Shown here: in pieces, positions 20,348 through 35,287 of the stretch | Position numbering within the stretch: position 1 is the first letter of the stretch | Layout: each line of letters starts with the position of its first letter | Assembly: GCF_006716565.1 (NCBI RefSeq) | Contig: NZ_VFPG01000001.1 | Span: 3,410,001-3,474,000 of the forward strand | Direction of reading: 5' to 3' | From: Nocardia bhagyanarayanae | GTDB lineage: Bacteria; Actinomycetota; Actinomycetes; Mycobacteriales; Mycobacteriaceae | DNA: 64,000 nt | Program-made: the position numbers and the translations under genes | The notes under the pieces: model-generated | What the model was told of the DNA's origin: nothing | Seen by the model: the letters and a program-made list of their open reading frames with translations, nothing else | Database searches by the model: none

Positions 20348-21769
20348 GTGAGTGCGTCCCCTCGACACGACTTTCGACCCGGGTCGAGCGAAACGCTGAC
20401 CGATCGTCTCGTCGACTTCGTCGGCCTCCTCCGTGAACACGGAATCCACGCGGGCCCCAGCGAAACCGTCGACGCCGCGTCGGCGATCGTCGCTCTCGGC
20501 GTCGAGAACCGCGAACGCCTGCGCTCCGGTCTGGCCGCCTGCCTGCTGCGCCGCAACGGCCAACGCGCCGTCTTCGACCAGCTCTTCGATCTCTATTTCC
20601 TGACCGCCGAACGGCCAGAGCCCGCAACGGTTCCCGAGTCCGTCGAGACGCTGCGCGAACGGCTCGCCGCGGCGCTGGCCGCCGACGATCAGGCCGCGCT
20701 CGCCGAACTCGCGAGCCAATCCCTCACCGAGCTGGGCGGTTACGGCGGCGCGGGCGGCGCGGGTCAATCGTCGCGGCCCGTCACCACCGCGTCGGGTGCC
20801 GGTTGGTCTTCGTACCAGACCATGAAAGCCCTTCGCCCGGAAGAACTTCTGGATCGTGTCGTCGCCGGCATGGGTGGCGCGGGCGAACTCGATTCCGCCG
20901 TCCACACCATCGAGGCCCAACGCAGGCTGCGCTCGTTCCGCACCGCCGTCCAAACCCAGGCCCGCCTCCGCTCCGCCGACCTACGCGGCACCGACTACAT
21001 CGCCCGCCGCGGCGTCGAAACGGCAACGGACCGAATCGATTTCCTCGGTGCCCGCGAACAAGACCTCGCCGAGATGCGCCGCCTCGTCAACCCTTTGGCC
21101 CGCAAACTCGCGACCCGCCTCGCAGCCCGCCGCCGCAAGGCCGTCCGCGGCCAGATCGACATGCGCCGCACCCTGCGCCGCTCCATGGCCACCGGCGGCG
21201 TCCCCGTCGACCCGGTGCTGCGCGCCCGCAAACACGGCCGCCCCGACCTCGTCGTCCTCGCCGACCTCTCCGGCTCCGTCACCGGCTTCGCCGAGTTCAC
21301 CCTCCAACTCGTCCAAGCCCTGCAAGACCAATTCAGCAAAGTCCGCAGCTTCGGCTTCATCGACACTTGCGACGAGATCACCGGCTTCTTCACCCCCGGC
21401 GAACCACCGCAGCCCGGCCTCTCCGCCCGAATCATCCGCGAGGCCAGCGTCTCCCGCTTCGGCAGCAGCAACTACGGCGAAGCCTTCCGCACCTTCGCCG
21501 ACACCCAGCTCGACATCCTCGGCCCCCGCACCTCCCTCCTCATCCTCGGCGACGCCCGCACCAACCGCACCGACCCGAATCTTGCTGCCCTGCAAGCAAT
21601 GACCGACCGAGCCAAACACGCCCACTGGTTGAACCCCGAACCCGCCCGCTCCTGGTCCACCGGCGACTCCGCGGCATCGACCTACGCCGAGCACGTCACC
21701 ATGCACGAGTGCCGCAACGTGCGCCAGCTGACCGAGGTAATCTCCCGCCTCTCCTGCGTAGTGCTGTAA
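20348..21769 (+). CDS. VWA-domain protein, CoxE/MoxR-partner type
   Basis: The 473-aa protein starts at GTG 20348 (VSASPRHDFRPGSSETL) preceded by a G-rich ribosome site. The first part matches CoxE-like proteins (LVDFVGLLREHGIHAGPSETVDAA; a mid region ending KAVRGQIDMRRTLRRSM). The C-terminal half is a VWA domain with the metal-site motif VVLADLSGSVTGFAEF (DxSGS). It is the expected partner of the MoxR ATPase upstream. This is the last core-like gene before the lower-GC island. Confidence 0.87.
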   Translation: MSASPRHDFRPGSSETLTDRLVDFVGLLREHGIHAGPSETVDAASAIVALGVENRERLRSGLAACLLRRNGQRAVFDQLFDLYFLTAERPEPATVPESVETLRERLAAALAADDQAALAELASQSLTELGGYGGAGGAGQSSRPVTTASGAGWSSYQTMKALRPEELLDRVVAGMGGAGELDSAVHTIEAQRRLRSFRTAVQTQARLRSADLRGTDYIARRGVETATDRIDFLGAREQDLAEMRRLVNPLARKLATRLAARRRKAVRGQIDMRRTLRRSMATGGVPVDPVLRARKHGRPDLVVLADLSGSVTGFAEFTLQLVQALQDQFSKVRSFGFIDTCDEITGFFTPGEPPQPGLSARIIREASVSRFGSSNYGEAFRTFADTQLDILGPRTSLLILGDARTNRTDPNLAALQAMTDRAKHAHWLNPEPARSWSTGDSAASTYAEHVTMHECRNVRQLTEVISRLSCVVL

Positions 21770-21789
21770 CCGGGGTCGCGCGACGTCGT

Positions 21790-21835
21790 TTGACGTGCTG
21801 ACACATGTGGAGATGTTGAGACACAAGTGAGTTCG
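21790..21835. repeat. Short direct repeat at the left edge of the island
   Basis: Two related copies lie side by side: TGCTGACACATGTGGAG and TGTTGAGACACAAGTGAG (about 21796-21832). They sit directly after the VWA gene, where base composition drops. They resemble the repeated ends of actinobacterial insertion sequences, but no transposase is present, so a remnant end is a guess. Confidence 0.3.
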
Positions 21836-21852
21836 AAGCTATTCTGATTCAC

Positions 21853-22173
21853 TTGGGGTCGGATCCCGCCTGGACTAGAGATGAGCTGATCCTCGCGTGC
21901 GACTTGATGATGGAGAACAGTTGGCGACAGATTCGAGAGACTGACCCCCGGGCGGCCGCGTTGTCGAAGCTACTGAATGGTCTGCCGCCAGACCACGACG
22001 ACAGCAAAACCCCTAGGCTTGAGGCATGGCACGTAGCCCTAACGAGGGGTCGTGGGCGTCATCGCCCGGCCGCCGACGGAACATGCAGGCGAACCGATCG
22101 CAAGATACGCAGCCTGAGCTGGCGGTCCGGCGACGACTGCATGGCGAGGGGCTTCGGTACCGCATTGCTGTAG
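21853..22173 (+). pseudogene. 5' remnant of an HNH/McrA-like restriction endonuclease gene
   Basis: About 55 residues (PAWTRDELILACDLMMENSW, then DPRAAALSKLLNGLP) match the N-terminal domain that precedes the HNH nuclease in actinobacterial McrA-like proteins. There, WTRDELILALDLY and an ELSxLLRxLP segment are followed by FRNPNGV. Here the similarity stops near 22015 and the rest is unrelated sequence. The only start is TTG at 21853, and the HNH catalytic part is missing. It overlaps the start of the Vsr-like gene. It is probably a truncated relic. Confidence 0.45.
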
Positions 22174-22544
22174 CACCTGTACCGGGCCTGCGCCGGAGAG
22201 CCGATATCGTTTTTACGAGGGCCCGCATTGCTGTCTTTATAGACGGATGCTTTTGGCACGGCTGCCCAGCGCACGGTCGACAGTCGTTCAAGCGCAACGT
22301 CGATTATTGGCGGACCAAGATAGCAATGAATGTTGCTCGCGATAGGGAAACCAACAGCAGGTTAAAGTCTGAAGGGTGGACGGTGTTGAGGTACTGGGAA
22401 CACGAGGACGCTGACTTGGTCGCCCGAGATATCGTGCGGATTGTGCGCCAGGCACAACTTAGGCCAACAAAAGGTCCGCGAAGTAGCCTAACCCGGGGTC
22501 TCGGAATGTACCCACAACCAGACCGCGATCTAGAAAGCGATTGA
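22026..22544 (+). CDS. vsr: Very-short-patch-repair (Vsr-type) DNA endonuclease
   Basis: Vsr nicks DNA 5' of T in T:G mismatches made by deamination of 5-methylcytosine. The 172-aa product shows the family motifs in order: MQANRSQDTQPELAVRRRLH, the catalytic RADIVF, then VFIDGCFWHGCPAH with zinc/catalytic Cys and His, WRTKI, N..RD, and GWTVLRYWEHE. It is on the strand opposite to the island operon, and its last 86 bases overlap the 3' end of drmB. A cytosine methyltransferase in the same island provides its biological reason. Its GC and codon use are those of the island. Confidence 0.9.
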   Translation: MARSPNEGSWASSPGRRRNMQANRSQDTQPELAVRRRLHGEGLRYRIAVAPVPGLRRRADIVFTRARIAVFIDGCFWHGCPAHGRQSFKRNVDYWRTKIAMNVARDRETNSRLKSEGWTVLRYWEHEDADLVARDIVRIVRQAQLRPTKGPRSSLTRGLGMYPQPDRDLESD

Positions 22545-24429
22545 ACTCCTCACAGCTGGTTTCGGGGACGAGCGCGCAGCCGTGGCAGGCGGCCAAGTTG
22601 CATGAGTCAGGCCCCTGGCCCTTTTCCCCCATGTCCATGCAAACGGGGTCGGTTGAACACCACCTAGCCCCGCTGAGCGCATTGGCCACGACCGACCAAA
22701 GTGCATCGGGTCGTGCCATCCGGACGAGCCCGCCCATGGTTCCCTCGGAGTCTCCAGCCGCCGTGTAGATAAGTAGCCCAGCCATCCGGTGGTTTGGTCT
22801 CTCGGAAACGTAGAGACGCTCACGGAGCGATGCTGAACTGTAGCCGCAGGCGAAGACGAGTTCATTCATCAGCAGGTGTCCGAGCGTGTGGAGCAGGACA
22901 AATCGTGGGCTGATCTGGCGCTGCTGCAACCCTCGCTGCCGGGCGACGTTGCTATGGTGATCGATGATCTTTTGTGACCGCGCTATCACTTTCGGCCGCT
23001 GTTCCCAATCTTCGAGGCGCTGTTGGTCTAGTTCTAAATAGATGCCTTCGCCCTTGACAACGTATGCCGGGAGCCAGTCGTGCTCGATTGGTAATTGACG
23101 GCGACGCAGCAGCCTCTTCCCTCGTGTCAGCTTCAAGCCCTCATCGCGCACGCGAGTGAAGCCGCGCAGTGCACGCGTCTCGGTCAGTGTCTCCAGTCGT
23201 CGTACCCGGTCGAGAAAGCTTGAGAGTTCTTCATGTACGCCCGGATCGGTTGAAGTGAGTAGGTCATCGACGGGGATCTCACGGAGCAGTTGATACTCGG
23301 GGTAGCGCCATTCATCGTTCCCGGTAAGCGTCTCAACAGCGTCTTCAGCATCCTCGTTGCCTCCCGCCATAGAGTCATCCAAGGAGCCCGAGTCCCCAAA
23401 ACTGCCGTGCCCGAACATGTCCCGATAGCCCGCCAGCAGTTCATGGTCCGTCATCGGCTTGAACAGTTCGTGCGGCAGCTCAGCGCGGATCTGGGCAGCA
23501 GTCACACCGGCACCGTCGATTCTATTCAGAATTCGCAGTATCGGCCGTACATCGGCCCGGTTCATCAGCTTGTGCAGCTCCGCGCTCACCGCTCCGACCT
23601 GGCGAGGCAGGTAGATCGAAGATTCGACCTTCGGGAAATAGACGTTCCCCGCGCCGCGCAGGGCACCGCGTATCGGCTGACTGCAGCTACCGTCGAGCTC
23701 GGCCAACCAAGGCCGCGAACCGGTGCAATAGAACGGTCTTTCGTCGGCGGCCAACTGGTCGGTGAGATGGGTACGCTCTACCTGGTTTTCCCAGTGCGAG
23801 TTCATGATCCCATCGAGCGACCGCTCTGCGCTGCACCCCTTCGGCATACTGCTGGGATCACAGACTACGACCTGGCCCTCCAGTCCACCGCCGCCACGCG
23901 ACTCCAGCCGCAACGTTCCTCTGCAACCCGGGCTGTGGCTGCGGTGAACCCATTCCCTGAATGGGAAGTCGTCGAGGTGACCGTGAGCGCAGATGGCGAT
24001 AAAGGGCACCTGTGACATACGAGGCGGCCTCTTCTTGCGACCGTCGGCGTCTTGCTTGTGCTTCGAGTCCGGGCATTCGACGGGCTGAGCCATCGTAAGG
24101 GGACTGAGTTCCAACCGCTTACAGTACATGCAGAACGACCAACGCGGGAACCGCAGCACAGGAACACTCAGGTTGGTATTGCGCAAGTCTTTTCCACGCT
24201 GTCGAGGCCGATAGTCGGGCGGGAGCCGGAATTCGCGAACCCGCAAGCGAGCTTCCAAGCGCCAGTCCTGCGCTTGGTACTCATCGAGCTCAAGTTGGGT
24301 CGGGTCATCCACTGAGTACCAGTGGTCGAGGCCGGCTGTGATTACCGAGGTTCCATTTACCAGGACACTCATGGCACCGACGCCAAAAGGCGTCACCAAC
24401 TGTGCACGCCGGATGCTGCCTGTAGTCAC
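22459..24429 (-). CDS. drmB: DISARM protein DrmB (DUF1998)
   Basis: The 656-aa product is the DrmB partner of the DrmA helicase. It opens with IRRAQLVTPFGVGAM, as DrmB proteins do. It carries zinc-type pairs (FCMYCKRLEL; ICAHGHLDDFPFREWVH). The DUF1998 end has FACGYSSASLRERLYV, then DPVCMDMGEKGQGPDSCNLA, CHGC and PETSCEEFN. I chose the GTG at 24429 because it overlaps the drmA stop as GTGA; an ATG at 24495 adds 22 Arg-rich residues. DrmA-DrmB form the core DNA-binding complex of DISARM. The 3' end overlaps the convergent vsr gene. Confidence 0.9.
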   Translation of the reverse strand: MTTGSIRRAQLVTPFGVGAMSVLVNGTSVITAGLDHWYSVDDPTQLELDEYQAQDWRLEARLRVREFRLPPDYRPRQRGKDLRNTNLSVPVLRFPRWSFCMYCKRLELSPLTMAQPVECPDSKHKQDADGRKKRPPRMSQVPFIAICAHGHLDDFPFREWVHRSHSPGCRGTLRLESRGGGGLEGQVVVCDPSSMPKGCSAERSLDGIMNSHWENQVERTHLTDQLAADERPFYCTGSRPWLAELDGSCSQPIRGALRGAGNVYFPKVESSIYLPRQVGAVSAELHKLMNRADVRPILRILNRIDGAGVTAAQIRAELPHELFKPMTDHELLAGYRDMFGHGSFGDSGSLDDSMAGGNEDAEDAVETLTGNDEWRYPEYQLLREIPVDDLLTSTDPGVHEELSSFLDRVRRLETLTETRALRGFTRVRDEGLKLTRGKRLLRRRQLPIEHDWLPAYVVKGEGIYLELDQQRLEDWEQRPKVIARSQKIIDHHSNVARQRGLQQRQISPRFVLLHTLGHLLMNELVFACGYSSASLRERLYVSERPNHRMAGLLIYTAAGDSEGTMGGLVRMARPDALWSVVANALSGARWCSTDPVCMDMGEKGQGPDSCNLAACHGCALVPETSCEEFNRFLDRGLVVGTFRDPGLGYFADLLLA

Positions 24430-27400
24430 TCGTCCGCCGCCTCGGCTGCGGCGGCTGCGTCCCGGTTGTAATCGAGCGAGATCTCCAGTCGGCACTCGGC
24501 GTCGACGTTACGCATGCTAGTGGGTACGTCCCACATAGTTGCAGATGCCTTGAGATCCGGCAGGGTGCCGGCGTAGCGCATCAAGCCTTGCTTGGGATCG
24601 CCACCCACAGCGTTGGCGCTCCAATCAGTGCGCTCCCATTTCTCCCATTCGTTTGCCCGTCTGTGTTGCTCTCGTCTCAGCGTTGCCAGCTCGCCTCGAT
24701 CAGCTATCTTGGCACGCTTTTCCAGAAGATCGACGGCAGTTTCGTACTGCGTAGCGGGGAATGGGTAGACCGGCAAGTCGAGTTCGGATGTTTGACGAAT
24801 ATGCGAGATCACGGCGGCGTGTAGCGCGCGGTTGAGCACGGGCGCCGCGAATGGTGTCAACGAGGTTGGTTCGACCTGGGCGTATAGCTGCTGATGGTAT
24901 GTACGGAAGCGCTCGTAGTGGCTACGATCCCGAGGCTTGGCAGCGCCATAGATTGTGATGACAAGGCCTGGATTGCGGTCCGGCCTACGGCCGATGCGGC
25001 CACTGACCTGGATGTATTGCGCGGTGGTCTTGGGTTGGCCAACTATCGTGATCAGTCCCAGCCGGTCGATGTCGACGCCGACCTCGATGATGTTCGAGGC
25101 GAGGCAGAGGTCGACGCATCCGGGCTCGCCATAGTGAAGCTGAAGCTGCTCGATTGCCTTTGGGATGTCATCACTACGCCGACGGCTTGTAAGTTCCATC
25201 GGTATACGTGGCCATCGGAGCGACTCTAAATCCTCTCGTCGCCGAAGCCCTGCCAGATAGTCCGGTATGTCAGATTGGACCAACGAGACCGTGTTACCAA
25301 GCTCCCGGAGAGAGTTCAGAAAAATAAGGTTCGTCCAGTAGCCATCCCTGTCAGAATCACGGAGTGCGACTGCCCCTTGCAGGGTGGCCGCGGCCACCCT
25401 TACCTGAACAGTCTGAGTCGACCCGAGCGAGGCGCTCATGACACCCAAATACCGCCGCCCCGGCTCAGGTTCACCATCTTCCCGCGTTGCTGGTTCAGCG
25501 AAGAAGGAATGCCCGTCGTCCAGGCCCTGCGGTGGGAAGAGAGCCACCTGCTCGCGTCCAAAAAGACTGCGAATCTGGTCGCTGTAGCGCCGAATGGTGG
25601 CCGTCGAGGCGATAATCTTCGGCGGACTGGGTTTGCTCTCGCGTTTATCGGTACAAAGGTCATCGATTACGGGCTCATATAGGCCAACCATCGAGCCGAG
25701 CGGGCCCGAGATCAGGTGTAGCTCGTCTTGGACAATTAGGCCGGGCGGTGAGACCCTCCGGATGCCATCATCGTCCAGCCCGAAGAGGGCGCGTGCCTCC
25801 GGACGCCAAGCCATCATGGCGAACTTGTCCACGGTGCCGATCACAATCGAGGGCTTGCTGTCGTAAATGTCTTGATCGACAACGTGGATCGGCAGTTTCC
25901 GACGCCCGCCGAAACGGCAGGCGTTGTCGATGCACCGGAATTCGACCTTCTTGCCAACGAGTTCGTAGCCGACTATGTCCTGGCCGCGACGAGGCTTCGG
26001 CTTGGGTCCCATCTCGGTGCCACACCACGGGCACCGCAGAAGGAGGAATTTGTTTTGTGCAGCGGGGTCGCTACCAAGTCGGCGCCAGTTTGTCACTGCC
26101 TGATCCCAATTGTTGGGAGTCGATGAACCGCCCAACCAGATGCCGATGCCGAAGGGTGCCGTCCCGAGCTCGTTCTGGTTCCTCGACCGGATGTCCTCCA
26201 GCACGCAAATCAGAACAGCCGCGCGGAGGAACTGCTGGGCTGTGAGTAGGCGCAGCGTATACCGCATGAGGGTGTCGGTCCCAGAGTCGTCCTTATTGCG
26301 CAGGCGTCGCGCCAACAGGCTTATGGCAGACGCACCAAGGTAGGCCTCGGTCTTTCCGCCTCCAGTTGGAAAGAAGATCAAGTCGACAATTGATCGGCTC
26401 GCTCGTGTTCGATCAACGAGTTCGGGCAAGCTAGCGAGCAAAAAGGCAATCTGGAAGGGTCGCCAGTTGCCCTTGCCTGGCAGTCGCTTGGGCACTGGAT
26501 GGGAGCTGGTGACAACGAGCCGCCCGTCGCGCTGGCGTTCTACCTCTCTCCGTTCGAAACTAGAGCGAAGTTGCTGGTAGAACATGGCCTCGTTTGCGAG
26601 ACGAAATGCCCGGCGAGCAGTAGGATCTGTTGTCGCTAATTGCCAGCCAATCTGCATGCGCTCAAGCGCCTCCCAGCAGAGTCGCATGTGACGGCGGGCT
26701 GCGGGTTGAAACTGCGGGAGCAGTCCATCAATCTCTACTTCACGCTCCCGAATCCACTCTTCGTATAGGCGCAGCACGGTGTCAACCTGGCCACGGCCAA
26801 CATCGCTCCCTTTGGCGAGCTCCTCCATGCTGACAGTCACCACTTGGCGTTTGCCGTCCCGTCCGTTGACATAGACGTTTGGTGTCAGGCTCACGACCTC
26901 GTGCGCGGGTAGGGGCTCGGCGCATACAGCGTCGACTAGCTCCTCGGCACTGAGGTTCCATTCGGCGGCGCAGCCATGCCCGATGGCGTAGGTCCGCTGT
27001 TTCCGGTATAGCAAGGCAATCGACTGTTCCTCCGTGTCCGGCTCGCGCAGTTCGACATCTGGATACGGCGTGATGCGGGCGCCGTCCTGAGGGTTCGCGT
27101 GGAATCTCATCTGGAAAAGCGCCGAAGATGGGCCACGACCCGACGCGGTGTTGAGCGCGGCGATGGTGACAAGACGAAGCGTTGAATCCGCAGGCTGTCT
27201 CGGCGCGCGGCGGCTGAACACCTGCAGTGTGGGCGTGATCTTAAGGTTTTCCGCAGGGCTCAGCGGGACGGTTATCAGTTGGTTATTCTCGGCCAGAAGC
27301 ATCTGGTGGGAAATAGCCCCAGACAGTTGGAAGGGGCGGCGTACCCACCATGTGCGTGGCCTACGAAGTCCCGGCCATAAAACCGAGACTCGGTCGTAAT

Positions 27401-27920
27401 AGGCGCCTGTCACCGTGACAGCCAAACTGCTTCCTGGTGGCACTTCGCATTGGAACGAGATCGCCATCGCTGCGGGTTTGAAGGAATTGGCGTCCGTCAA
27501 ATCGAAGTCGTCGCTATCGGCTTCGCCGCGAGCCGCCGACGTACTCTTCACCTCGATCGCCAACACCGGCTCGGTCAACAACCCCTCGCTGGTACTCAGT
27601 CCAGTGACTCCGACGATCTCGTCGCTATCGTCGTCCATGGCACCGCGAGGCTCGGGCGCTATCGATGTGCTGGGGGCGGGGACGGCTCCTCCAAAGAGGA
27701 TCCCAACGCCGTACCGGCGTAGTGGGTCGGATTCCGTAAGAATCTCTTGACTGGTGGCTTTCTCGTGCCAGAGGCCCCAACTGTCCTCGCGCTTCTCGAA
27801 ATGCACCACTCCGGATGAACAGTCTAGTGGTTTGCCGCGGGCTGGCTCGTCGGTAGGTGGGCCGAAAAGCTCTCGCCGGACGGCTGCCTCAAGGATGGCG
27901 CGTGCCTCAACCCCTGTCAT
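24426..27920 (-). CDS. drmA: DISARM helicase DrmA
   Basis: The 1164-aa SF2 helicase begins with VRRELFGP and YGVGILFGG, the N-terminal DrmA signature. Walker A FFPTGGGKTEAYLG lies near residue 515. A zinc insertion (LRCPWCGTEM...RCIDNACRF) lies near 630-665 and the DEXH-type box QDELHLISGPLGSM near 730. ASTATIR follows, then motifs V-VI in ASNIIEVGVDID and QVSGRIGRRPDRNPGL. In DISARM, DrmA with DrmB loads on invading DNA with free or single-stranded ends. The start ATG overlaps the preceding helicase stop as ATGA. Low-GC composition compared with flanking genes suggests transfer. Confidence 0.92.
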   Translation of the reverse strand: MTGVEARAILEAAVRRELFGPPTDEPARGKPLDCSSGVVHFEKREDSWGLWHEKATSQEILTESDPLRRYGVGILFGGAVPAPSTSIAPEPRGAMDDDSDEIVGVTGLSTSEGLLTEPVLAIEVKSTSAARGEADSDDFDLTDANSFKPAAMAISFQCEVPPGSSLAVTVTGAYYDRVSVLWPGLRRPRTWWVRRPFQLSGAISHQMLLAENNQLITVPLSPAENLKITPTLQVFSRRAPRQPADSTLRLVTIAALNTASGRGPSSALFQMRFHANPQDGARITPYPDVELREPDTEEQSIALLYRKQRTYAIGHGCAAEWNLSAEELVDAVCAEPLPAHEVVSLTPNVYVNGRDGKRQVVTVSMEELAKGSDVGRGQVDTVLRLYEEWIREREVEIDGLLPQFQPAARRHMRLCWEALERMQIGWQLATTDPTARRAFRLANEAMFYQQLRSSFERREVERQRDGRLVVTSSHPVPKRLPGKGNWRPFQIAFLLASLPELVDRTRASRSIVDLIFFPTGGGKTEAYLGASAISLLARRLRNKDDSGTDTLMRYTLRLLTAQQFLRAAVLICVLEDIRSRNQNELGTAPFGIGIWLGGSSTPNNWDQAVTNWRRLGSDPAAQNKFLLLRCPWCGTEMGPKPKPRRGQDIVGYELVGKKVEFRCIDNACRFGGRRKLPIHVVDQDIYDSKPSIVIGTVDKFAMMAWRPEARALFGLDDDGIRRVSPPGLIVQDELHLISGPLGSMVGLYEPVIDDLCTDKRESKPSPPKIIASTATIRRYSDQIRSLFGREQVALFPPQGLDDGHSFFAEPATREDGEPEPGRRYLGVMSASLGSTQTVQVRVAAATLQGAVALRDSDRDGYWTNLIFLNSLRELGNTVSLVQSDIPDYLAGLRRREDLESLRWPRIPMELTSRRRSDDIPKAIEQLQLHYGEPGCVDLCLASNIIEVGVDIDRLGLITIVGQPKTTAQYIQVSGRIGRRPDRNPGLVITIYGAAKPRDRSHYERFRTYHQQLYAQVEPTSLTPFAAPVLNRALHAAVISHIRQTSELDLPVYPFPATQYETAVDLLEKRAKIADRGELATLRREQHRRANEWEKWERTDWSANAVGGDPKQGLMRYAGTLPDLKASATMWDVPTSMRNVDAECRLEISLDYNRDAAAAAEAADE

Positions 27921-29617
27921 GCATTGCCTCCATAGGTGGCGCGAAGCGTCTGTACTTCGATCAAAGTGATCAAGCGATCCGTCGCGCGCGTCAATCCGAC
28001 ATACAGCAGCGCTTCGAAGTTGGGTGCGGATGCCGCGTCGAGGTCGGTGGCGATGATTGCCGGGGCATCCAGCCCTTTGAAGGCATGGATTGTGCTGTAG
28101 CGAAGTCGGCCTCGCTTAGGCACTTGGCCATCAGCAGGTTGCAAAATCTGTCGAAGCCATGGATCCGTCGTTGTTTCGGCAGTTGCCCCGTGCCGGAGAG
28201 GGCTTAGCACTACGATCTCATCCAGGTTGTAACCATCGGCTCGCAGCATATGCACCGCGTCGGTCAAGGCCTTCGATTGATCAGTGCCACGGGGGACTGG
28301 GATGAACTCGGGATCGGCACCATCATCCGGACGGCGGAAGCGACGGTAACCGGGCGCCATATGGCTGAGCTTCTTTACGACTGTCCCAATTCGCGGCAAA
28401 TTCCGGCAGTTGACAGTCAGCGCGAATGTTGTCAGGCCTGGTATCCTATCGCGCAGCAGAGCCCTTCCGTCGCCTCGTTCATAGATTGCCTGGCGCTCGA
28501 AATCGCCAAAAAGGAGCACTCGGCCACCTCCAAGGCCACCCTCGACCAGGAACTCGAGCACGTCAATGAACGGCTCACGGGCGAGATCCTGGATCTCGTC
28601 GACAATGAGGAAGTCGGCGGCTTCATCTTCCCCATGATCGAGTAGCGCTTCAATGGCGCGATCTGGAAGATCGCTTTCCCAGAAGTCAGGCTCAGCTTGA
28701 GACGGCGCTCGCCCGCCGCTGAGCCTGAGCGCCTCCTCGTGAAACGTCGCGATCCGAACGCCCTCGACCCCGATCAACTGCTGCTTCAGTCGCTGGCCGA
28801 GTAGACGATTGAAGCACAGCACCCGTCCAGTTCGCCCGACCGCGACTTCCCGTCGGGTGGCTTCCATTGCCAGCCAGGTCTTCCCAGTCCCTGCGGGGCC
28901 TGCGAACAGAACCGCTTGGTTGTGCTGCATGTTGTCGAGCGCATCGTATTGTTCGTCAGTGAACGTTGCGAGCTGGGTCTCCCGTGCTCGTCGGATGTCC
29001 CCCGGCACGATTGCGGCCTCGAACTTCGGCCGTAGGACGTTTGCGATCCGGAGGGCTGCTGCGTCATCTAGTCCGCCTACGTCGTGGCTGAACCCAGGTA
29101 CCCGGCTCTCCAAATGCTTGATCCCTGCGACTATGACCCGCAGGATTGCTGGTACGGCGCCAGTGTGTAGATCTTCTGAGTCTAGTAGCTGCCACTCCTG
29201 CCACTCCGGACTCCGCGGAAGCATAGTGCGGGCGCGGACAGAGGTGAACCAGACCGCATTTAGCACCGGGACGGAATGCAGGTCGACGTTGCGTGATCGT
29301 AGATAGTTGCGAATGCTGTGCATAGATTCATTCGCCTGCTGAAAAGGGCTGCGGCTGGTCGGCGGCTGTGAACCGAGCTTCCATTGGCCATCGGGCGACC
29401 GCTTCACCGAGGAATGCGACTTCACCTCGATGACCAACATGCCGTGCTTCGGCGTGATCACGACGAAGTCGGCCTCACCCTCGACCTGGCTCACATGCGA
29501 AGCGATTGCCTGGGAGTGCAATACGATCCAGCCGTCGGTTTCCGCGCTGGACGCCAATGCCCTGAAGAGAGCCTTCTCTCCGGGCGGCGCATCATCAGGG
29601 CAATACGGCGGCATCAT
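27917..29617 (-). CDS. NERD-domain SF1 (UvrD-like) helicase
   Basis: The 566-aa protein has a NERD nuclease-related domain near residues 45-80 (GEADFVVITPKHGMLVIEVKSH, a PD-(D/E)XK-like D...EVK pattern). A UvrD/PcrA-type helicase core follows: Walker A FAGPAGTGKTWLA near 240, VDEIQDL near 342, the QAIYERG region, and the C-terminal STIHAFKGLDAPAII and YVGLTRATDRL. I chose the ATG at 29617, which overlaps the previous stop as ATGA; ATGs at 29626 and 29614 are also possible. It is coupled to drmA. A nuclease-helicase taking the place of DrmC is my inference. Confidence 0.88.
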   Translation of the reverse strand: MMPPYCPDDAPPGEKALFRALASSAETDGWIVLHSQAIASHVSQVEGEADFVVITPKHGMLVIEVKSHSSVKRSPDGQWKLGSQPPTSRSPFQQANESMHSIRNYLRSRNVDLHSVPVLNAVWFTSVRARTMLPRSPEWQEWQLLDSEDLHTGAVPAILRVIVAGIKHLESRVPGFSHDVGGLDDAAALRIANVLRPKFEAAIVPGDIRRARETQLATFTDEQYDALDNMQHNQAVLFAGPAGTGKTWLAMEATRREVAVGRTGRVLCFNRLLGQRLKQQLIGVEGVRIATFHEEALRLSGGRAPSQAEPDFWESDLPDRAIEALLDHGEDEAADFLIVDEIQDLAREPFIDVLEFLVEGGLGGGRVLLFGDFERQAIYERGDGRALLRDRIPGLTTFALTVNCRNLPRIGTVVKKLSHMAPGYRRFRRPDDGADPEFIPVPRGTDQSKALTDAVHMLRADGYNLDEIVVLSPLRHGATAETTTDPWLRQILQPADGQVPKRGRLRYSTIHAFKGLDAPAIIATDLDAASAPNFEALLYVGLTRATDRLITLIEVQTLRATYGGNA

Positions 29618-31137
29618 TCGAGCCACTTGGAACCTCGATTCTTCATGAGAATCCGCACATCATGGCGCGCGACGATCTCCACGTGCGGTGCGATGGCGAG
29701 CACTTTGGTCGCAATCACGCCGCGAAAACCATTTACCTCGAGCTCAAGTCGAAGATGACCATCGCGCTCTAGCACAGACATGTCGGCGGTGCCGACGGCG
29801 TCTTCGAGCTGCTCGGCAATTTTGGCGCTTGCTTGGGCACGTATGCGCCGCAACGCCGTCGCAAGTTCGAATGTCGGATGTACTGGGAGGCAAAGCCACT
29901 GCAGGAGAAGCTCGAAGTCTTGGTTGTTCTGCGGCCTGGCAAGCATGGGGTCGGTCCACGCGTATACGCGCTCGGAGGAGCGAATACCAAGTTCGGCAAG
30001 TTCACGCGCCACTGCCGTCCGGCCCAGCTGGTTGAGCCGGGCCTGCAAGGTTGCCTTCCAGCGTGCCTGCGATGCCTCAACAGCCTGGGCCGGCGAGCCC
30101 AGCAATTCAAGCGCCGCATCGTATAGCGCTCGCCGCTCAGTCTGGCCGTCCCGAAGAAGCAGGTATGTGCCTGGACGGACGTCAGGTACATCGACTGTCG
30201 TCACACGTCCGCCACCCCGTTGCGAGGGATCGACAGCGCGGATCCACTCTCCGTCGTCCAGCCAAATGGCGTAGCCGCCACTCAGCAGAACCTGTCGAGC
30301 AGCGATCTCGTCAGCGTCAGGTTCCCTGGCGGGTGCTTCCGGAATGATCCATGTCGCCTGCGGGAGCAGTTCTCCCTCATCCTCGGCACTTTCGCGGGAA
30401 GCTGTCGCCGCCTCCCAGGTTTCTCCCACTGCGGAAAGTCGCCCCTTCACCAGTACTGCGCTTTCGGCATACTCGGCCAGGAGGGAATTTGGGATCGCCT
30501 GGTCCCCGAACCATCCGGGCATGATATAGCTCAGCGCCTCGGTCGTCGGGGATGTTACTAGTGATGACGGGAAGAAACGCGGTGGTCCGATCGCGTAGCC
30601 CTGTCCCACAAACAGCTGGTCGCGGACCACCTGACTAGCGAGGCGCACAGTGAACCCCTGCGGGGCCAGCCAATTCGCCAGCCCTACCATGGCAGACCCG
30701 CTTGCAGCAATTACGACACAGCCGTCTGAGCCAGCGTCCTTGAGTGACTCAAGTAGGACTCCTCCGGCCGCGGGGTCTGCTGTTGCAGCTTCTTCGGCTG
30801 CGGTAGCCAGCTCATCGATCGCCTGCTGAACAACTGGACCGGCTACTTGTCGAAGCCTTACGGATTCGTCGATAACAGCAGTCACCGCCTGCAGGAGCGC
30901 GGCGTTGAACTGGCGCGGCTGCGGCTGTGTCATCAGTCGCCATCGGAGCGCCTTGGCGGCTCCGAGTAGGTCGTCCCAGATGCCGGGAATATTGTCCCGC
31001 ACCAGGACATAGACATGGCGCACCGCGGCGTCGACCCGGGCGCTGATGGGGTCTCCGACGGCCACGATCCCGACGCCAGTTGACATAAGCCGAGTGGTGC
31101 GCTCGTAGCGAGTGTTGAGTGCAGCGATGCGACTCAT
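29614..31137 (-). CDS. Island protein of unknown function, candidate DrmE C-terminal half
   Basis: The 507-aa product starts MSRIAALNTRYERTTRLM at an ATG overlapping the previous stop (ATGA). It looks soluble and mostly helical. It has an early SARVDAAVRHVYVLVRDN stretch, a central GYAIWLDDGEWIRAVDPS segment and VRPGTYLLLRDG. The C-terminal region (LYDAALELL, RWKATLQARLNQLGR, YAWTDPMLARPQNNQDFELL) resembles what I recall of the C-terminal part of the class 2 DISARM protein DrmE. No catalytic motif is evident. Together with the 297-aa protein upstream it reaches typical DrmE size, so the two may be one split DrmE. Confidence 0.6.
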   Translation of the reverse strand: MSRIAALNTRYERTTRLMSTGVGIVAVGDPISARVDAAVRHVYVLVRDNIPGIWDDLLGAAKALRWRLMTQPQPRQFNAALLQAVTAVIDESVRLRQVAGPVVQQAIDELATAAEEAATADPAAGGVLLESLKDAGSDGCVVIAASGSAMVGLANWLAPQGFTVRLASQVVRDQLFVGQGYAIGPPRFFPSSLVTSPTTEALSYIMPGWFGDQAIPNSLLAEYAESAVLVKGRLSAVGETWEAATASRESAEDEGELLPQATWIIPEAPAREPDADEIAARQVLLSGGYAIWLDDGEWIRAVDPSQRGGGRVTTVDVPDVRPGTYLLLRDGQTERRALYDAALELLGSPAQAVEASQARWKATLQARLNQLGRTAVARELAELGIRSSERVYAWTDPMLARPQNNQDFELLLQWLCLPVHPTFELATALRRIRAQASAKIAEQLEDAVGTADMSVLERDGHLRLELEVNGFRGVIATKVLAIAPHVEIVARHDVRILMKNRGSKWLE

Positions 31138-32027
31138 AGCGGCACCACAAAGCCGAGAGTTTCGACGCCAGGCGGCGGCGCCCACCGGACCTCTCGCTCG
31201 ACGGACAGCGGCTGCCCCCGCGTATTGCGATAGTTGAGGACCCGCTCGGGGGCCGACTCGTCGGCAACGCTGCGGTCTAGCACCACAATGACAACGGAGG
31301 CCTCGATCGCCGCCAAATAGCTTGTCGCAGAAGCACCATCCAGAACAACCGCTCGTACGTCGGCGGGCGGGAGTTGCATGTCGAGGCGCGACGCGGCGTA
31401 AAGACGTGTCGACCACGTGGCAACGCGGGGGGCTTCAGGCAGCAAGATCTGTGCGATCGGCTCACGCTCGTTTCCGCGGCCGAGGAAGGTGCTGACGTCT
31501 TGTCTTAGCCACTTGAGGGTTCCGGCAAATGCAAGGTCGGCGGGCGGCTGGCACAATCGGGCGGCCCACTCCTTATCCAACCCTGCCATCCTGCTGATCA
31601 CACCCGGTTCAGGGAGCGGCTGCTCTTGCGGCACTTTCAGACTCCGTAACGGTGTCATCGCAAGGACCTTGTCCAGCTGCCACTGGCGGCCGACACGCAG
31701 CCGGTCGCGGTTCGTGCCGATCCAGTCGAAGAAGTCGGTGATGATCCTCGTCCGAGTAACGATGCGAACCGGCGCGCCCGGTTGAATAGAAGTAGCAACC
31801 TCACGGACGGGGGGAAGCCTGGGTGCAGGCGAGGCCATCATCCAACCACAACCGATCAGCACTGCCGCGAAATCTCGAGCCGGAACGGAAACAGCAATTA
31901 CCAGTTGCTGCCCCGAGTGAGATCTGGACCAATGCGCAGCCCTACTTCCAAGCATCAGGAGTCGACTCGCCCAGGGTGCAGCAACGTGCGGACCGACGCC
32001 TTCGGACAGAGTGAGTGCGCCGCTCAT
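31134..32027 (-). CDS. Island protein of unknown function, candidate DrmE N-terminal half
   Basis: The 297-aa product begins MSGALTLSEGVGPHVAAPWA. It contains QQLVIAVSVPARDFAAVLIG followed by an SIQPGAPVRIVTRTRII segment that suggests a beta-rich domain. Later come VRAVVLDGASATSYLAAIEA and VVIVVLDRSVADES, which look like a Rossmann or helicase-like beta strand with Asp. There is no complete nucleotide-binding motif. It ends in an ATGA overlap with the 507-aa gene. I do not firmly recognise the family; a DrmE N-terminal half is the best guess from size, neighbours and strand. Confidence 0.55.
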   Translation of the reverse strand: MSGALTLSEGVGPHVAAPWASRLLMLGSRAAHWSRSHSGQQLVIAVSVPARDFAAVLIGCGWMMASPAPRLPPVREVATSIQPGAPVRIVTRTRIITDFFDWIGTNRDRLRVGRQWQLDKVLAMTPLRSLKVPQEQPLPEPGVISRMAGLDKEWAARLCQPPADLAFAGTLKWLRQDVSTFLGRGNEREPIAQILLPEAPRVATWSTRLYAASRLDMQLPPADVRAVVLDGASATSYLAAIEASVVIVVLDRSVADESAPERVLNYRNTRGQPLSVEREVRWAPPPGVETLGFVVPL

Positions 32028-32153
32028 GCGATGGGGCTCCCAAGCACAGGTGTCCCCCTACTCGTATTACTTCCGAGTCCCGACCTTGCTACACCATATC
32101 AGAGCAGTGCTGACAGAGCTTGGAGTCAGCGCGGCAAGGAATCCCGTCGATGG

Positions 32154-33182
32154 TCAAGCAGTCAGCATACCGCTAAAGGGTGAATCTGCGGCCGTTACAA
32201 GGGCTCTCGCCGTCGCCTCCGCGAGAGCCCTTGCCAGCGGGGGCGGTACAGCGTTGGATACCTGCTCGACTTGTGCAGAAAGCGTCCCTTCAAGTACAAA
32301 ATCCGGAGGAAATCCTTGAAGTAACATCGACTCGAAGATACTCAAGCGTCGGTTTCCGTCAGGATGCACGTGTATCTCGCGGTGGCCGTAAGCGACTGTC
32401 GGACTGGGCCTGTCCCAGGCCAAGCGGCGAAAGCTTCTCCCCGCGTTTGTCGCGCCCTCAGGATCGGCGAACCGCTTTGATAACGGGCGCATCGTCCAGT
32501 GGTTCGGGTGGTGGGGAATATCCTCTGGTTTCAGATCCCGGGAGAAGTAAGCGGGTTGAGGTAGTGATCCGATTGCGCCACGCACAGTAAGATCTTTCCC
32601 AGTGATTTTGGTGGGCGTAAAACCAGCTGCGACAGCCGGGTTGGAGAAGCCCGAAATGATAACGCGGTTCCGTGTCTGGGCAACCCCGAAGTCGAGAGCC
32701 GAGTACTCGTCGACACCCGGCTTCAGCCCGATATCATCGAACTTCGCCAAGATGCCTCTAAAGGCAATGGAATGCTTTGTGTCACGGATACCTAGGACAT
32801 TTTCGAAGAGCACGAACTGGACCCGATACTTCTTCTGGAGCGCTTCAACGATCTCTAAGTAAAGCAGCGGCAGCCTATTACGTGGATCGTTGGCGGCTGA
32901 TCCGCTATTGGCACGAGAGAACCCCTGGCACGGAGGTCCTCCGATGACGCCTATCGGTTCGTGCGGCCTTAGAAGTCCTTCAAGGTGGTGAAGTACTCCC
33001 GCGGGCCCTAGCTTAACGAGATCGGCTGTGATGGAGGTGGTCTGCGGGAAGTTGCGCTGATGCGTCTTGATGGCGGCCGGCGAACTGTCGACCGCGAACA
33101 CGATCGGAAAGCCAGTCTGGTGATAGCCCAAGTCCAGCCCGCCGGCCCCGGAGAACAGGCTTACGATCTTTGGCGGTGACAA
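32154..33182 (-). CDS. C5-cytosine DNA methyltransferase (DrmMII-like)
   Basis: The 342-aa enzyme methylates cytosine C5 in DNA. Motif I is SLFSGAGGLDLGY, motif IV GGPPCQGFSRAN with the catalytic Cys85, motif VI FENVLGI, motif VIII AQTRNRVIIS, and motifs IX-X span RLAWDRPSPTV to QVSNAVPPPLARALAEA. The target sequence cannot be read from the protein. The start is TTG at 33182, chosen because AGGGAGG lies 4 bases upstream. It is the first gene of the island and 126 bases before the next gene. In class 2 DISARM the cytosine methylase DrmMII marks self DNA. Confidence 0.9.
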   Translation of the reverse strand: MSPPKIVSLFSGAGGLDLGYHQTGFPIVFAVDSSPAAIKTHQRNFPQTTSITADLVKLGPAGVLHHLEGLLRPHEPIGVIGGPPCQGFSRANSGSAANDPRNRLPLLYLEIVEALQKKYRVQFVLFENVLGIRDTKHSIAFRGILAKFDDIGLKPGVDEYSALDFGVAQTRNRVIISGFSNPAVAAGFTPTKITGKDLTVRGAIGSLPQPAYFSRDLKPEDIPHHPNHWTMRPLSKRFADPEGATNAGRSFRRLAWDRPSPTVAYGHREIHVHPDGNRRLSIFESMLLQGFPPDFVLEGTLSAQVEQVSNAVPPPLARALAEATARALVTAADSPFSGMLTA

Positions 33183-33611
33183 GTGGCCTCCCTCTCATGC
33201 AGTGCACAACCTCGTCCAGCGTTCGCATCTTCACGGTCCAAATGACCCCATAGGTTGCGGATCATGATCACTCTAGCCTCGCCTGTGCAAGCAGATGCTC
33301 TCAACGAGAACTCTGTTGACCAAGGCGCCAAATGCTGGGCCCCGGGACCGTCTTTGGTGCCGAGTGCAGCTTGTGAGCGTTCGTGGTTGCTGAGAGTAGC
33401 GGCTGCCTCCTGGTTGCGCTGGTCAGGTAGGGCAGTCGCGAGTGGGGGCGGTCGAGCAGAGCCATGTCGCCCGGCGACCACGTGCCTTGGCCGTGGCCGG
33501 GTTTTGGGCCACATACGGGACGACCGGATCGCGGGCGTCGAACGGCGATGAGTTCTGCCGGGGTTCCTCGTCTGTATTCATACACCCGATCAACCGCACC
33601 CGAGGAGCATC
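33183..33611. other. Right edge of the island, divergent promoter region, no gene seen
   Basis: The 429 bases separate the methyltransferase (minus) from the RibD-like reductase (plus). Base composition changes from island-like to core-like across it, so the right boundary of the inserted DNA probably lies here. I see no tRNA, integrase, attachment-site repeat or convincing promoter; ATCATGAT at 33263 is a short palindrome of uncertain meaning. Confidence 0.4.
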
Positions 33612-34199
33612 ATGACCGCCACTTACACCTTCGACGTCTTTTCCACCCTCGACGGCTTCGCCTCGTATGGTGCCGATGGTGACTGGGGCGGCTACTGGGG
33701 CAAACAAGGTCCCGAGCTGCTCGACCACCGTCTCGCCCTGTACGGCGAGGCGCAGCGGATGGTGTTCGGGGCCGAGACGTTTCGGCAGTTCGTGCAAATG
33801 ACGGCCGCTAGCGCCGAGTATTCCGAAATGTACGACCCGTGGGTCACCCGGATGCGGAACCTGCCGGCAACGGTGGTGTCGACCACCACAATGGAAGAAC
33901 CCCTCGACTGGCCGGACGCGACCGTCGTCGAGGGCGACGCCGTCGACGTCGTGGCCCGGCTCAAGGACGAGTCGGACGTGCCGTTGCGCTCGCACGGCAG
34001 CCTGTCGATGAACCGGTCGTTGATGGCCGCTGGTCTGGTGGACCGCGTCCAGGTGACGATCTTTCCGGTGATCACAGGCCGAACCGGGGTGGAACCGATT
34101 TTCCAGGGTGCGGCCGACTTCGACCTCGAGCTGATCGAGCTACGGACGCTCGACGGCAACATCCAAGAGCTCGTCTACCGGCCCACCCTGCACGTCTGA
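33612..34199 (+). CDS. Dihydrofolate reductase/RibD C-terminal-family reductase
   Basis: The 195-aa protein has the RibD_C/DHFR-like fold: a start TFDVFSTLDGFASYG, the WGKQGPELLDHRLALYGEA segment, the NADPH-binding HGSLSMNRSLMAAGLVD, and QVTIFPVITGRTGVEPIF. GAGGAGCATC precedes the ATG. Such stand-alone proteins are common in actinobacteria with unknown substrates; it is not a true folate or riboflavin gene by context. It is the first gene after the island. Confidence 0.85.
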   Translation: MTATYTFDVFSTLDGFASYGADGDWGGYWGKQGPELLDHRLALYGEAQRMVFGAETFRQFVQMTAASAEYSEMYDPWVTRMRNLPATVVSTTTMEEPLDWPDATVVEGDAVDVVARLKDESDVPLRSHGSLSMNRSLMAAGLVDRVQVTIFPVITGRTGVEPIFQGAADFDLELIELRTLDGNIQELVYRPTLHV

Positions 34200-34273
34200 G
34201 CCCACCCATTCCCCGTCGGCAGCTCAACCCGACCCACGATCTCGGTGCACATTCGAGAGAAGGGGTGGCGGGT

Positions 34274-35287
34274 TCAGCGGCGGACTTCGGCCAGCATGAC
34301 CGGTCGACGCTCGGCGCGGGAGAGTTCGCAGGCTTCGGCGATGTAGAAGGCTTCGAGGGCGTCGGCGACGGTGCAGGGGCTGGGTGCGGTTCCGGTGGCG
34401 ACGGAGACGAAGGTGGTGAGTTCCTCGGTGTAGGCGCGGCGGAACCGTTCCATGAAGCCGGGGTAGGCGGGGTAGGGGGAGGCGGGGTGGTCGGGTTCGA
34501 CGGAGCGGAGTGGGGCGCGGTCGTCCAGGCCGACGATGGCGTTGCCTCGGGAGCCGAGCACCTCGAGGCGGACGTCGTAGCCGGCGCCGTTGTAGCGGCC
34601 GAGGTTGACGGTCGCGAGGGTGCCGTCGTCGAGGGTTAGCACGACGGCGGCGGTATCGATATCGCCTGCGGCGGTGAAGAATTCGTCGCCGAGGTTGGCG
34701 CCGCGGGCGTAGACCTCGGTGATTTCGCGGCCGCTGACCCAGCGGATGATGTCGAAATCGTGGACGCCGCAATCGCGGAACAGGCCGCCGGAGCGCGGGA
34801 TGTAGTCGGCGGGCGGCGGCGCCGGGTCCAGCGTGGTGGCCCGCAGGGTGTGCAGCCAGCCGAGTTCGCCGCTGGCGACGGCCGCGCGGGCGGCGCGGTA
34901 ACCGGCGTCGAAGCGTCGTTGGAAGCCGATCTGTACGGGAACGGCGCTGCTGCGCACACGGTCCAGCACGGCAAGCGTGCCGTCGATGTCGGTGGCGACC
35001 GGTTTCTCGCAGAAGACCGGGATGCCGCGGTCGACGGCGGCCGCGATCAGCGCGGGGTGGGAATCGGTCGCGGTGGCGACGACGAGTCCGGTGAGGTCGG
35101 CGGCAAGGAGGGTCTCGATGTCGGGTACGGCCTCGACGCCGAGTTTGGCGGCGGTGGCGTGCGCGCGGGTGGTGTCGATGTCGGCGACCACGACGCGATC
35201 GACGCCGGGGAGTCCGTGCAGGGTTTCGGCGTGCGCCGTGCCGATGCGGCCGACGCCCGCGAGGCCTAGCGTGACGGTGCTGCTCAT
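34274..35287 (-). CDS. iolG: Inositol 2-dehydrogenase-like oxidoreductase (Gfo/Idh/MocA)
   Basis: The 337-aa enzyme should oxidise myo-inositol (or an isomer) to scyllo-inosose with NAD+. The Rossmann motif is GLAGVGRIGTAHAETL, the catalytic Lys is in FCEKPVATD near residue 93, and GGLFRDCGVHDFDIIRW carries the Asp/His pair of the family. It follows the LacI regulator by 42 bases and faces the iol operon, which supports the inositol assignment over other sugars. Confidence 0.85.
   Translation of the reverse strand: MSSTVTLGLAGVGRIGTAHAETLHGLPGVDRVVVADIDTTRAHATAAKLGVEAVPDIETLLAADLTGLVVATATDSHPALIAAAVDRGIPVFCEKPVATDIDGTLAVLDRVRSSAVPVQIGFQRRFDAGYRAARAAVASGELGWLHTLRATTLDPAPPPADYIPRSGGLFRDCGVHDFDIIRWVSGREITEVYARGANLGDEFFTAAGDIDTAAVVLTLDDGTLATVNLGRYNGAGYDVRLEVLGSRGNAIVGLDDRAPLRSVEPDHPASPYPAYPGFMERFRRAYTEELTTFVSVATGTAPSPCTVADALEAFYIAEACELSRAERRPVMLAEVRR

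Follow-up and report, generated by a model that had tools for sequence, protein, structure and literature searches.

A 64,000-nucleotide stretch of Nocardia bhagyanarayanae DNA (hereafter the window) carries a gene island that we regard, with moderate confidence, as an antiphage system that is inserted in the chromosome and belongs to the DISARM (defence island system associated with restriction-modification) superfamily, forming a class of its own and working by the mechanism proposed below. Six genes are transcribed from the minus strand between 33182 and 22459 in the order C5-cytosine DNA methyltransferase (methylase), U1, U2, NERD/UvrD helicase, DrmA and DrmB, and the five genes from U1 to DrmB recur as a unit in other genomes. 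By the definitions tested, the set is DISARM-like and belongs to neither class 1 nor class 2, and a new DISARM-like class is the best label for it. The features of the island, with protein lengths in amino acids (aa), are as follows.

32154..33182, minus strand: C5-cytosine DNA methyltransferase, 342 aa, TTG start after gagggagg; Pfam DNA_methylase 4.4e-47
31134..32027, minus strand: U1, unfamiliar protein, 297 aa; conserved family, 31-row alignment
29614..31137, minus strand: U2, unfamiliar protein, 507 aa; similar to a helicase second domain over residues 1-240, followed by a beta-rich and then a helical part
27917..29626, minus strand: fusion of a NERD domain (PD-(D/E)xK-type nuclease) and a UvrD-type helicase, 569 aa; Pfam NERD (PF08378) 2e-13, UvrD_C_2 1.5e-8
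24426..27920, minus strand: DrmA, superfamily 2 (SF2; YprA-family) helicase, 1164 aa; PADLOC DrmA 5.7e-199; Walker A in 32/32 rows
22459..24429, minus strand: DrmB (DUF1998/MZB), 656 aa if the GTG at 24429 is the start (the open reading frame, ORF, opens at 24495); NCBIfam DrmB_fam 427 bits, cutoff 240
22026..22544, plus strand: Vsr very-short-patch-repair endonuclease; TIGR00632 131 bits, cutoff 97.85, nearly full model length
21853..22017, plus strand: probable HNH-endonuclease-like N-terminal remnant; tblastn

The GC (guanine plus cytosine) content was 60.7% in 21770-34200 and 69.3% in the remainder of the window, and 54 flank windows of equal length ranged from 67.5% to 70.7%. Composition and profiles agree with the original prediction, which had placed a DISARM core of DrmA, DrmB and a C5 methylase in one low-GC minus-strand block, accompanied by two unfamiliar proteins, a NERD-helicase and a Vsr nuclease; every named gene was located. 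The genes within the predicted edges are as named, except that 21853 to ~22017 holds no whole gene and looks like the N-terminal remnant of an HNH-type protein. Start/stop overlaps join successive genes from U1 through DrmB (the U2 ATG overlaps the U1 stop codon) and suggest translational coupling. A search for direct and inverted repeats between the island edges (21700-22150 and 33150-34330) found no common word of at least 11 bases.

Recurrence of the gene set as a unit was the test set beforehand. U2 relatives (E<=0.001) were present in 3 of 148 genus, 8 of 298 order and 6 of 394 class genomes; each count includes the own genome, the samples overlap, and the order and class counts each include one weak partial match. 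No U2 relatives were found among viral contigs, and a first pass over contigs that used only U2 itself as the query came up empty. Named genomes, when scanned, yielded 25 loci. After removal of four repeats (L020, L021, L032 and L073), and with weak partial matches (G274, G427 and G043) and presumed chaperonin matches left out beforehand, 34 loci were counted, the window included. The exact order U1-U2-NERD/UvrD-DrmA-DrmB, on one strand, was found in 28 of the 33 loci that lie on a single contig; in the 34th, from Nocardia uniformis, the set is split across two contigs. The remaining five are individually explained. Two distant relatives, L035 and L065, lack only a U1 detectable at BLAST level, and the U1 profile finds U1 in L065 (E 1.3e-15) and in L035 (itself in the profile). 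L092 ends within DrmA, the DrmA of L093 lies in two frames, and L076 reads U1-U2-DrmA with no NERD gene, DrmA beginning ~190 bases after U2. Since the order recurs so widely and each exception is explained, the block is more than a chance assembly. The set spans at least eleven actinobacterial families (by tree-row labels), and 33 of the 34 loci have the NERD gene. The distant relatives Nostoc HK-01 and Priestia lack a NERD gene and have U-like genes alongside DrmA-DrmB; BLAST found the Nostoc U2, and the Nostoc U1 was recovered only with a profile that already contained it, while the C-terminal part of Priestia U2 matched at E 2.9e-23 and its U1 was recognized by eye only.

DrmA and DrmB were borne out by strong PADLOC matches (E = 5.7e-199 and 6e-66) and by alignment with the solved structures 7s9v_A (E 3.2e-136) and 7s9v_B (1.1e-70), with an additional Pfam MZB match for DrmB (3.4e-8); in several relatives, DrmB similarity starts at residue 23 of the long ORF. 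Judged from its sequence, the window's DrmA is a divergent one, because its NCBIfam DrmAS score (809.7 bits, E 4.9e-243) lies under the cutoff of 950 and its alignment with Serratia DrmA leaves out the first ~285 residues. The Walker A motif is invariant at every position in all 32 full-length sequences, which come from Nostoc and 31 loci of the set, and so are D732/E733/H735 and V1139. The latter pairs with Serratia V1296 (residues counted along the alignment), which is proposed as a methylation sensor in PMC9142583.

In a quick tree of 50 DrmA rows with a midpoint root, a branch with a Shimodaira-Hasegawa-like approximate likelihood ratio test (SH-aLRT) value of 100 separated the 31 full-length DrmAs of the set, together with those of Nostoc, Priestia and Deinococcus psychrotolerans, from the class 1 and DrmC-bearing DrmAs on its other side. 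The DrmAs of the set are one group apart from the sampled class 1 and DrmC-bearing sequences, in a tree that holds no certain class 2 DrmA. This gap in the sampling, the midpoint root and the very long branch of the Lactiplantibacillus DrmA, which falls on the other side, leave the separation from class 2 undemonstrated; the sampling gap somewhat lowers our confidence in a class of its own and slightly raises that in the class 2 alternative.

The island lies in a variable chromosomal site. We took six stretches adjoining the left flank (a VWA_CoxE gene) from genus relatives and ran 19 cargo proteins against PADLOC. The right flank (a GFO/IDH/MocA oxidoreductase gene) is also colinear in G666 and G656, with 8-10 kb of other cargo between the flanks, and the variable stretch apparently includes the RibD_C gene at 33612-34199. 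The cargo comprised Mza genes in G666 (MzaC 2.9e-94), Mza genes and another DrmA-DrmB-UvrD set in G657, Druantia DruE/DruF in G662, and a DruM2-type methylase with a ZorD/DrmD-like helicase in G665, the stretches of the last three ending before the right flank; the single G656 protein scanned had no PADLOC match. In at least four of the six relatives, the site (window 21770-34270; L120, L121, L122 and L124) is a hotspot for defence genes. The DISARM-like set of G657 (L120 11440-19900) has DrmA (7.4e-246) and DrmB (5.1e-66) flanked by UvrD/GajB-like proteins, beside the Mza genes, and its DrmA groups in the tree with that of Tsukamurella NCTC13231.

As predicted, no DrmC was found: a DrmC model built from four sequences and applied to 43 stretches, the whole window among them, matched nowhere at E<=0.01, and one DrmC query against the whole host genome gave nothing credible (best E 0.173 over 34 residues). 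The further proposal, that nucleases of another kind stand in for DrmC, is plausible in the case of the NERD domain and weak in that of Vsr, which occurs in 17 of the 34 loci. In the NERD/UvrD protein, E17, D53, E67, K69, G248, K249, T250, D343 and E344 are at least 95% identical across 33 rows. Following the PD-(D/E)xK pattern, we read D53, E67 and K69 as the putative catalytic D..ExK residues, and because these predicted residues are conserved, the NERD domain is a likely candidate for a DrmC substitute. According to PMC9142583, DrmC appears non-essential, and phages without the methylated motif are still restricted.

U1 and U2 represent two families that are not meaningfully recognized by PADLOC 2023, Pfam or NCBIfam. 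For U1, PADLOC gave nothing at E<=0.01, and neither Pfam nor NCBIfam gave anything at E<=0.1. U2 matched no PADLOC model at E<=0.01, its Pfam and NCBIfam matches were all far under the curated cutoffs, and its residues 1-240 resembled the second domain of SF2 helicases at a modest score. A relationship of U2 to GroEL was considered and rejected: chaperonin matches in the PDB (best E 3e-4) span only residues ~18-153, and many weak phylum-level matches cover the same residues and are, by their length, presumably chaperonins; both were treated as chance.

The methylase scored 133.9 bits against NCBIfam dcm (cutoff 100.65), and its nearest PADLOC models are Druantia DruM2 (4.7e-98) and type II enzymes (MTase_II, 8.2e-71), ahead of DrmMII (1.7e-39). 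Methylases and Vsr genes were counted in the fetched DNA, mostly up to 10 kb on either side of each locus. A C5 methylase was found in 30 of the 34 loci, a count in which the G244 gene lies in an extra stretch ~3 kb past drmB and those of L023, L076 and L084 are cut by the edge. None was found in L071, in L079 even with another two 20-kb stretches included, or in L081 and L086, the last two of which are close to a contig end. In a rough comparison, unmatched for taxon or length, 4 of 17 other DISARM-like plasmid loci had a C5 methylase, and two of the 17 (L012 and L013) belong to the same DrmA group as the gene set. Fifteen of the 34 loci, the window included, have the window-type methylase (65-80% identity), always upstream of U1 on the same strand; six have a NaeI relative and nine have methylases of other kinds. 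The methylase looks like a near-constant neighbour, and an exchangeable one because several kinds occur across the loci.

The Vsr gene is convergent with drmB, their 3' ends overlapping (PADLOC Vsr 6.6e-18), and a convergent Vsr gene behind drmB was seen in 6 of the 15 loci with the window-type methylase. Very-short-patch repair usually occurs beside a C5 methylase. None of the 17 loci with Vsr lacks a C5 methylase within the DNA fetched (that of L084 being a fragment at the edge), so Vsr is less likely an effector and more likely the repair partner of the methylase. The remnant at the low-coordinate edge shares 41% and 44% identity with two annotated HNH endonucleases, both at E 1e-3, and 65% over 43 aa with an unannotated stretch in a Nocardia farcinica record (E 4e-11). 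The ORF at this edge (P0008, from 21853) was rejected as a gene because the similarity does not extend beyond roughly its first 50 residues. Near the operon in Nocardia carnea and Nocardioides iriomotensis we also observed an AspBHI-like endonuclease (RE_AspBHI_N + Mrr_cat; L020 2871-4169 and L032 3186-4445; 51% identical). AspBHI is a 5-methylcytosine-dependent enzyme, which makes its type an odd companion of a C5 methylase.

These neighbours raise the possibility, the strongest of the alternatives although still on the unlikely side, that the island is a composite in which a type II restriction-modification (R-M) set (methylase, Vsr and a broken HNH endonuclease) flanks an independent five-gene helicase system that works without the methylase. 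The variety of methylase kinds among the loci, the endonuclease remnant at the island's edge, and Rhodococcus opacus pROB02, where drmB is followed by NaeI-type R-M genes together with Vsr and HNH, are all consistent with such a composite. However, the presence of a methylase in 30 of 34 loci, and its upstream same-strand position in all 15 of the window type, exceed what is expected of chance neighbours, judged without a matched control. The island resembles type II R-M systems with Vsr (NaeI-like) in its C5 methylase and Vsr, with HNH or NaeI nucleases in related loci; it differs in that no intact restriction endonuclease was found in the block and in that the methylase and Vsr bracket a helicase operon.

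If the island is instead a DISARM-like antiphage system of its own class, as we favour, the C5 methylase would mark host DNA, an activity expected from its family. DrmA-DrmB, a helicase with a DUF1998 canopy, would load on DNA where single strands are exposed, for instance phage DNA during entry or replication, and unmarked DNA would activate it, by analogy with the solved Serratia DrmAB and in line with the conserved valine proposed as sensor. U1 and U2, whose overlapping frames precede these genes, would together serve as a partner module, for which the U2 fold suggests a probable role as a divergent, helicase-like scaffold or sensor. The NERD-UvrD protein, with its conserved putative catalytic residues, would act as the nuclease-helicase effector in the place of DrmC, and Vsr would mend T:G mismatches arising from deaminated methylated cytosines and take no part in the attack. 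How DISARM discriminates self from non-self and which agent cuts are questions that this class makes directly testable, because no DrmC was found, a NERD candidate is present in all loci but one, and the methylase is swapped between loci.

A more specific form of this idea seems to us doubtful. It describes a distinct third DISARM class whose self-marking methylase is a plug-in: several unlike C5 methylases could each partner the conserved module U1-U2-NERD/UvrD-DrmA-DrmB, and the module would read 5-methylcytosine status without a fixed recognition sequence. U1-U2 would then be a Hef/XPF-like helicase, split in two and ATPase-dead, which detects forked or junction DNA and passes it to the NERD nuclease-helicase.

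The label "class 2" given in the original prediction did not stand. PADLOC type II DISARM requires DrmA, DrmB, DrmC, DrmE and DrmMII (PMC9252829), whereas here no DrmC was found and neither U1 nor U2 matches a PADLOC model at E<=0.01. The set shares with DISARM a DrmA helicase and a DrmB DUF1998 protein encoded by separate consecutive genes, as in class 2, a DNA methylase nearby, and the helicase motifs and proposed methyl-sensing valine of DrmA. It differs in that DrmC, DrmD and DrmMI were not seen and DrmE was not detectable, with U1, U2 and NERD-UvrD present instead; DrmD and DrmMI of class 1 were not among the PADLOC matches listed for the eight island proteins (for the methylase, the best 25 of 56). 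Because U1 and U2 are unrecognized, a detector built on PADLOC's published DISARM rules would not score the set as complete.

An ordinary class 2 DISARM that lost drmC and split drmE, so that U1 and U2 together equal DrmE, is unlikely in our judgment. Class 2 likewise combines a C5 methylase and DrmE with DrmA-DrmB, and a Lactiplantibacillus plasmid reads C5 methylase, unknown 801-aa protein, DrmA, DrmB, in which 801 aa is near 297+507 and the C-termini share, by eye, a WK...W.DP pattern. However, profile comparison with the 801-aa protein gave P 0.38 for U2 and 0.6 for U1, U2 profiles with and without Priestia missed it at E<=5 and E<=10, and the Lactiplantibacillus DrmA is on the other side of the tree, though on its very long branch. 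The failure of PADLOC to match U1 or U2 also speaks against a split DrmE, but PADLOC misses the 801-aa protein in the DrmE-like position too, which makes this test weak. The 801-aa protein itself (L038 5877-8282), between the C5 methylase and DrmA and with no PADLOC or NCBIfam match, is a candidate divergent DrmE.

That the operon serves DNA repair or plasmid maintenance instead of phage defence is highly improbable: DrmA belongs to the YprA family, some branches of which are repair helicases (PMC12458937), but DISARM models fit DrmA and DrmB far better than any others, the spread is patchy (3 of 148 genus genomes) and the site is a defence hotspot.

Other systems are similar in parts. Like ARMADA, Druantia and TALON, the set has a YprA-family helicase within a defence operon; in those systems OB-CON-DUF1998 is typically fused to the helicase, whereas here DrmA and DrmB are separate genes. 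A NERD nuclease is used by TALON and a Vsr-type domain by ARMADA, whose type II also has a GajB-like UvrD helicase (these points from PMC12458937). TPR-CSD/TBP-like genes of TALON were absent from the Pfam matches of the eight island proteins, and neither a PglX-like methylase nor a separate BrxHII-like helicase is among the PADLOC matches shown for them, where BrxH matched DrmA over just 43 residues. According to a figure legend in Bell et al. 2025 (PMC12458937), the DISARM-like clade holds many uncharacterised DISARM-like classes, and the present gene set may be one of them. Our literature search, with limited coverage of subscription papers, recognized no description of this gene set.

The Tsukamurella NCTC13231 plasmid (methylase, RelA/SpoT-like protein, UvrD, DrmA, DrmB) and G657 resemble the set in combining DrmA-DrmB with a UvrD-type helicase, but their DrmAs are on the other side of the tree. 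The U2 profile had no significant match in either set, and the U1 profile, run only on Tsukamurella, had none there. The RelA/SpoT-domain protein of the Tsukamurella plasmid (L016 6102-7493; 1.6e-15), between the C5 methylase and the UvrD helicase, is a possible nucleotide-signalling effector in a DISARM-like system. On a Sphingomonas plasmid (L098 1-16382), the order DrmD-methylase-DrmA-DrmB is followed directly by type I-E cas genes.

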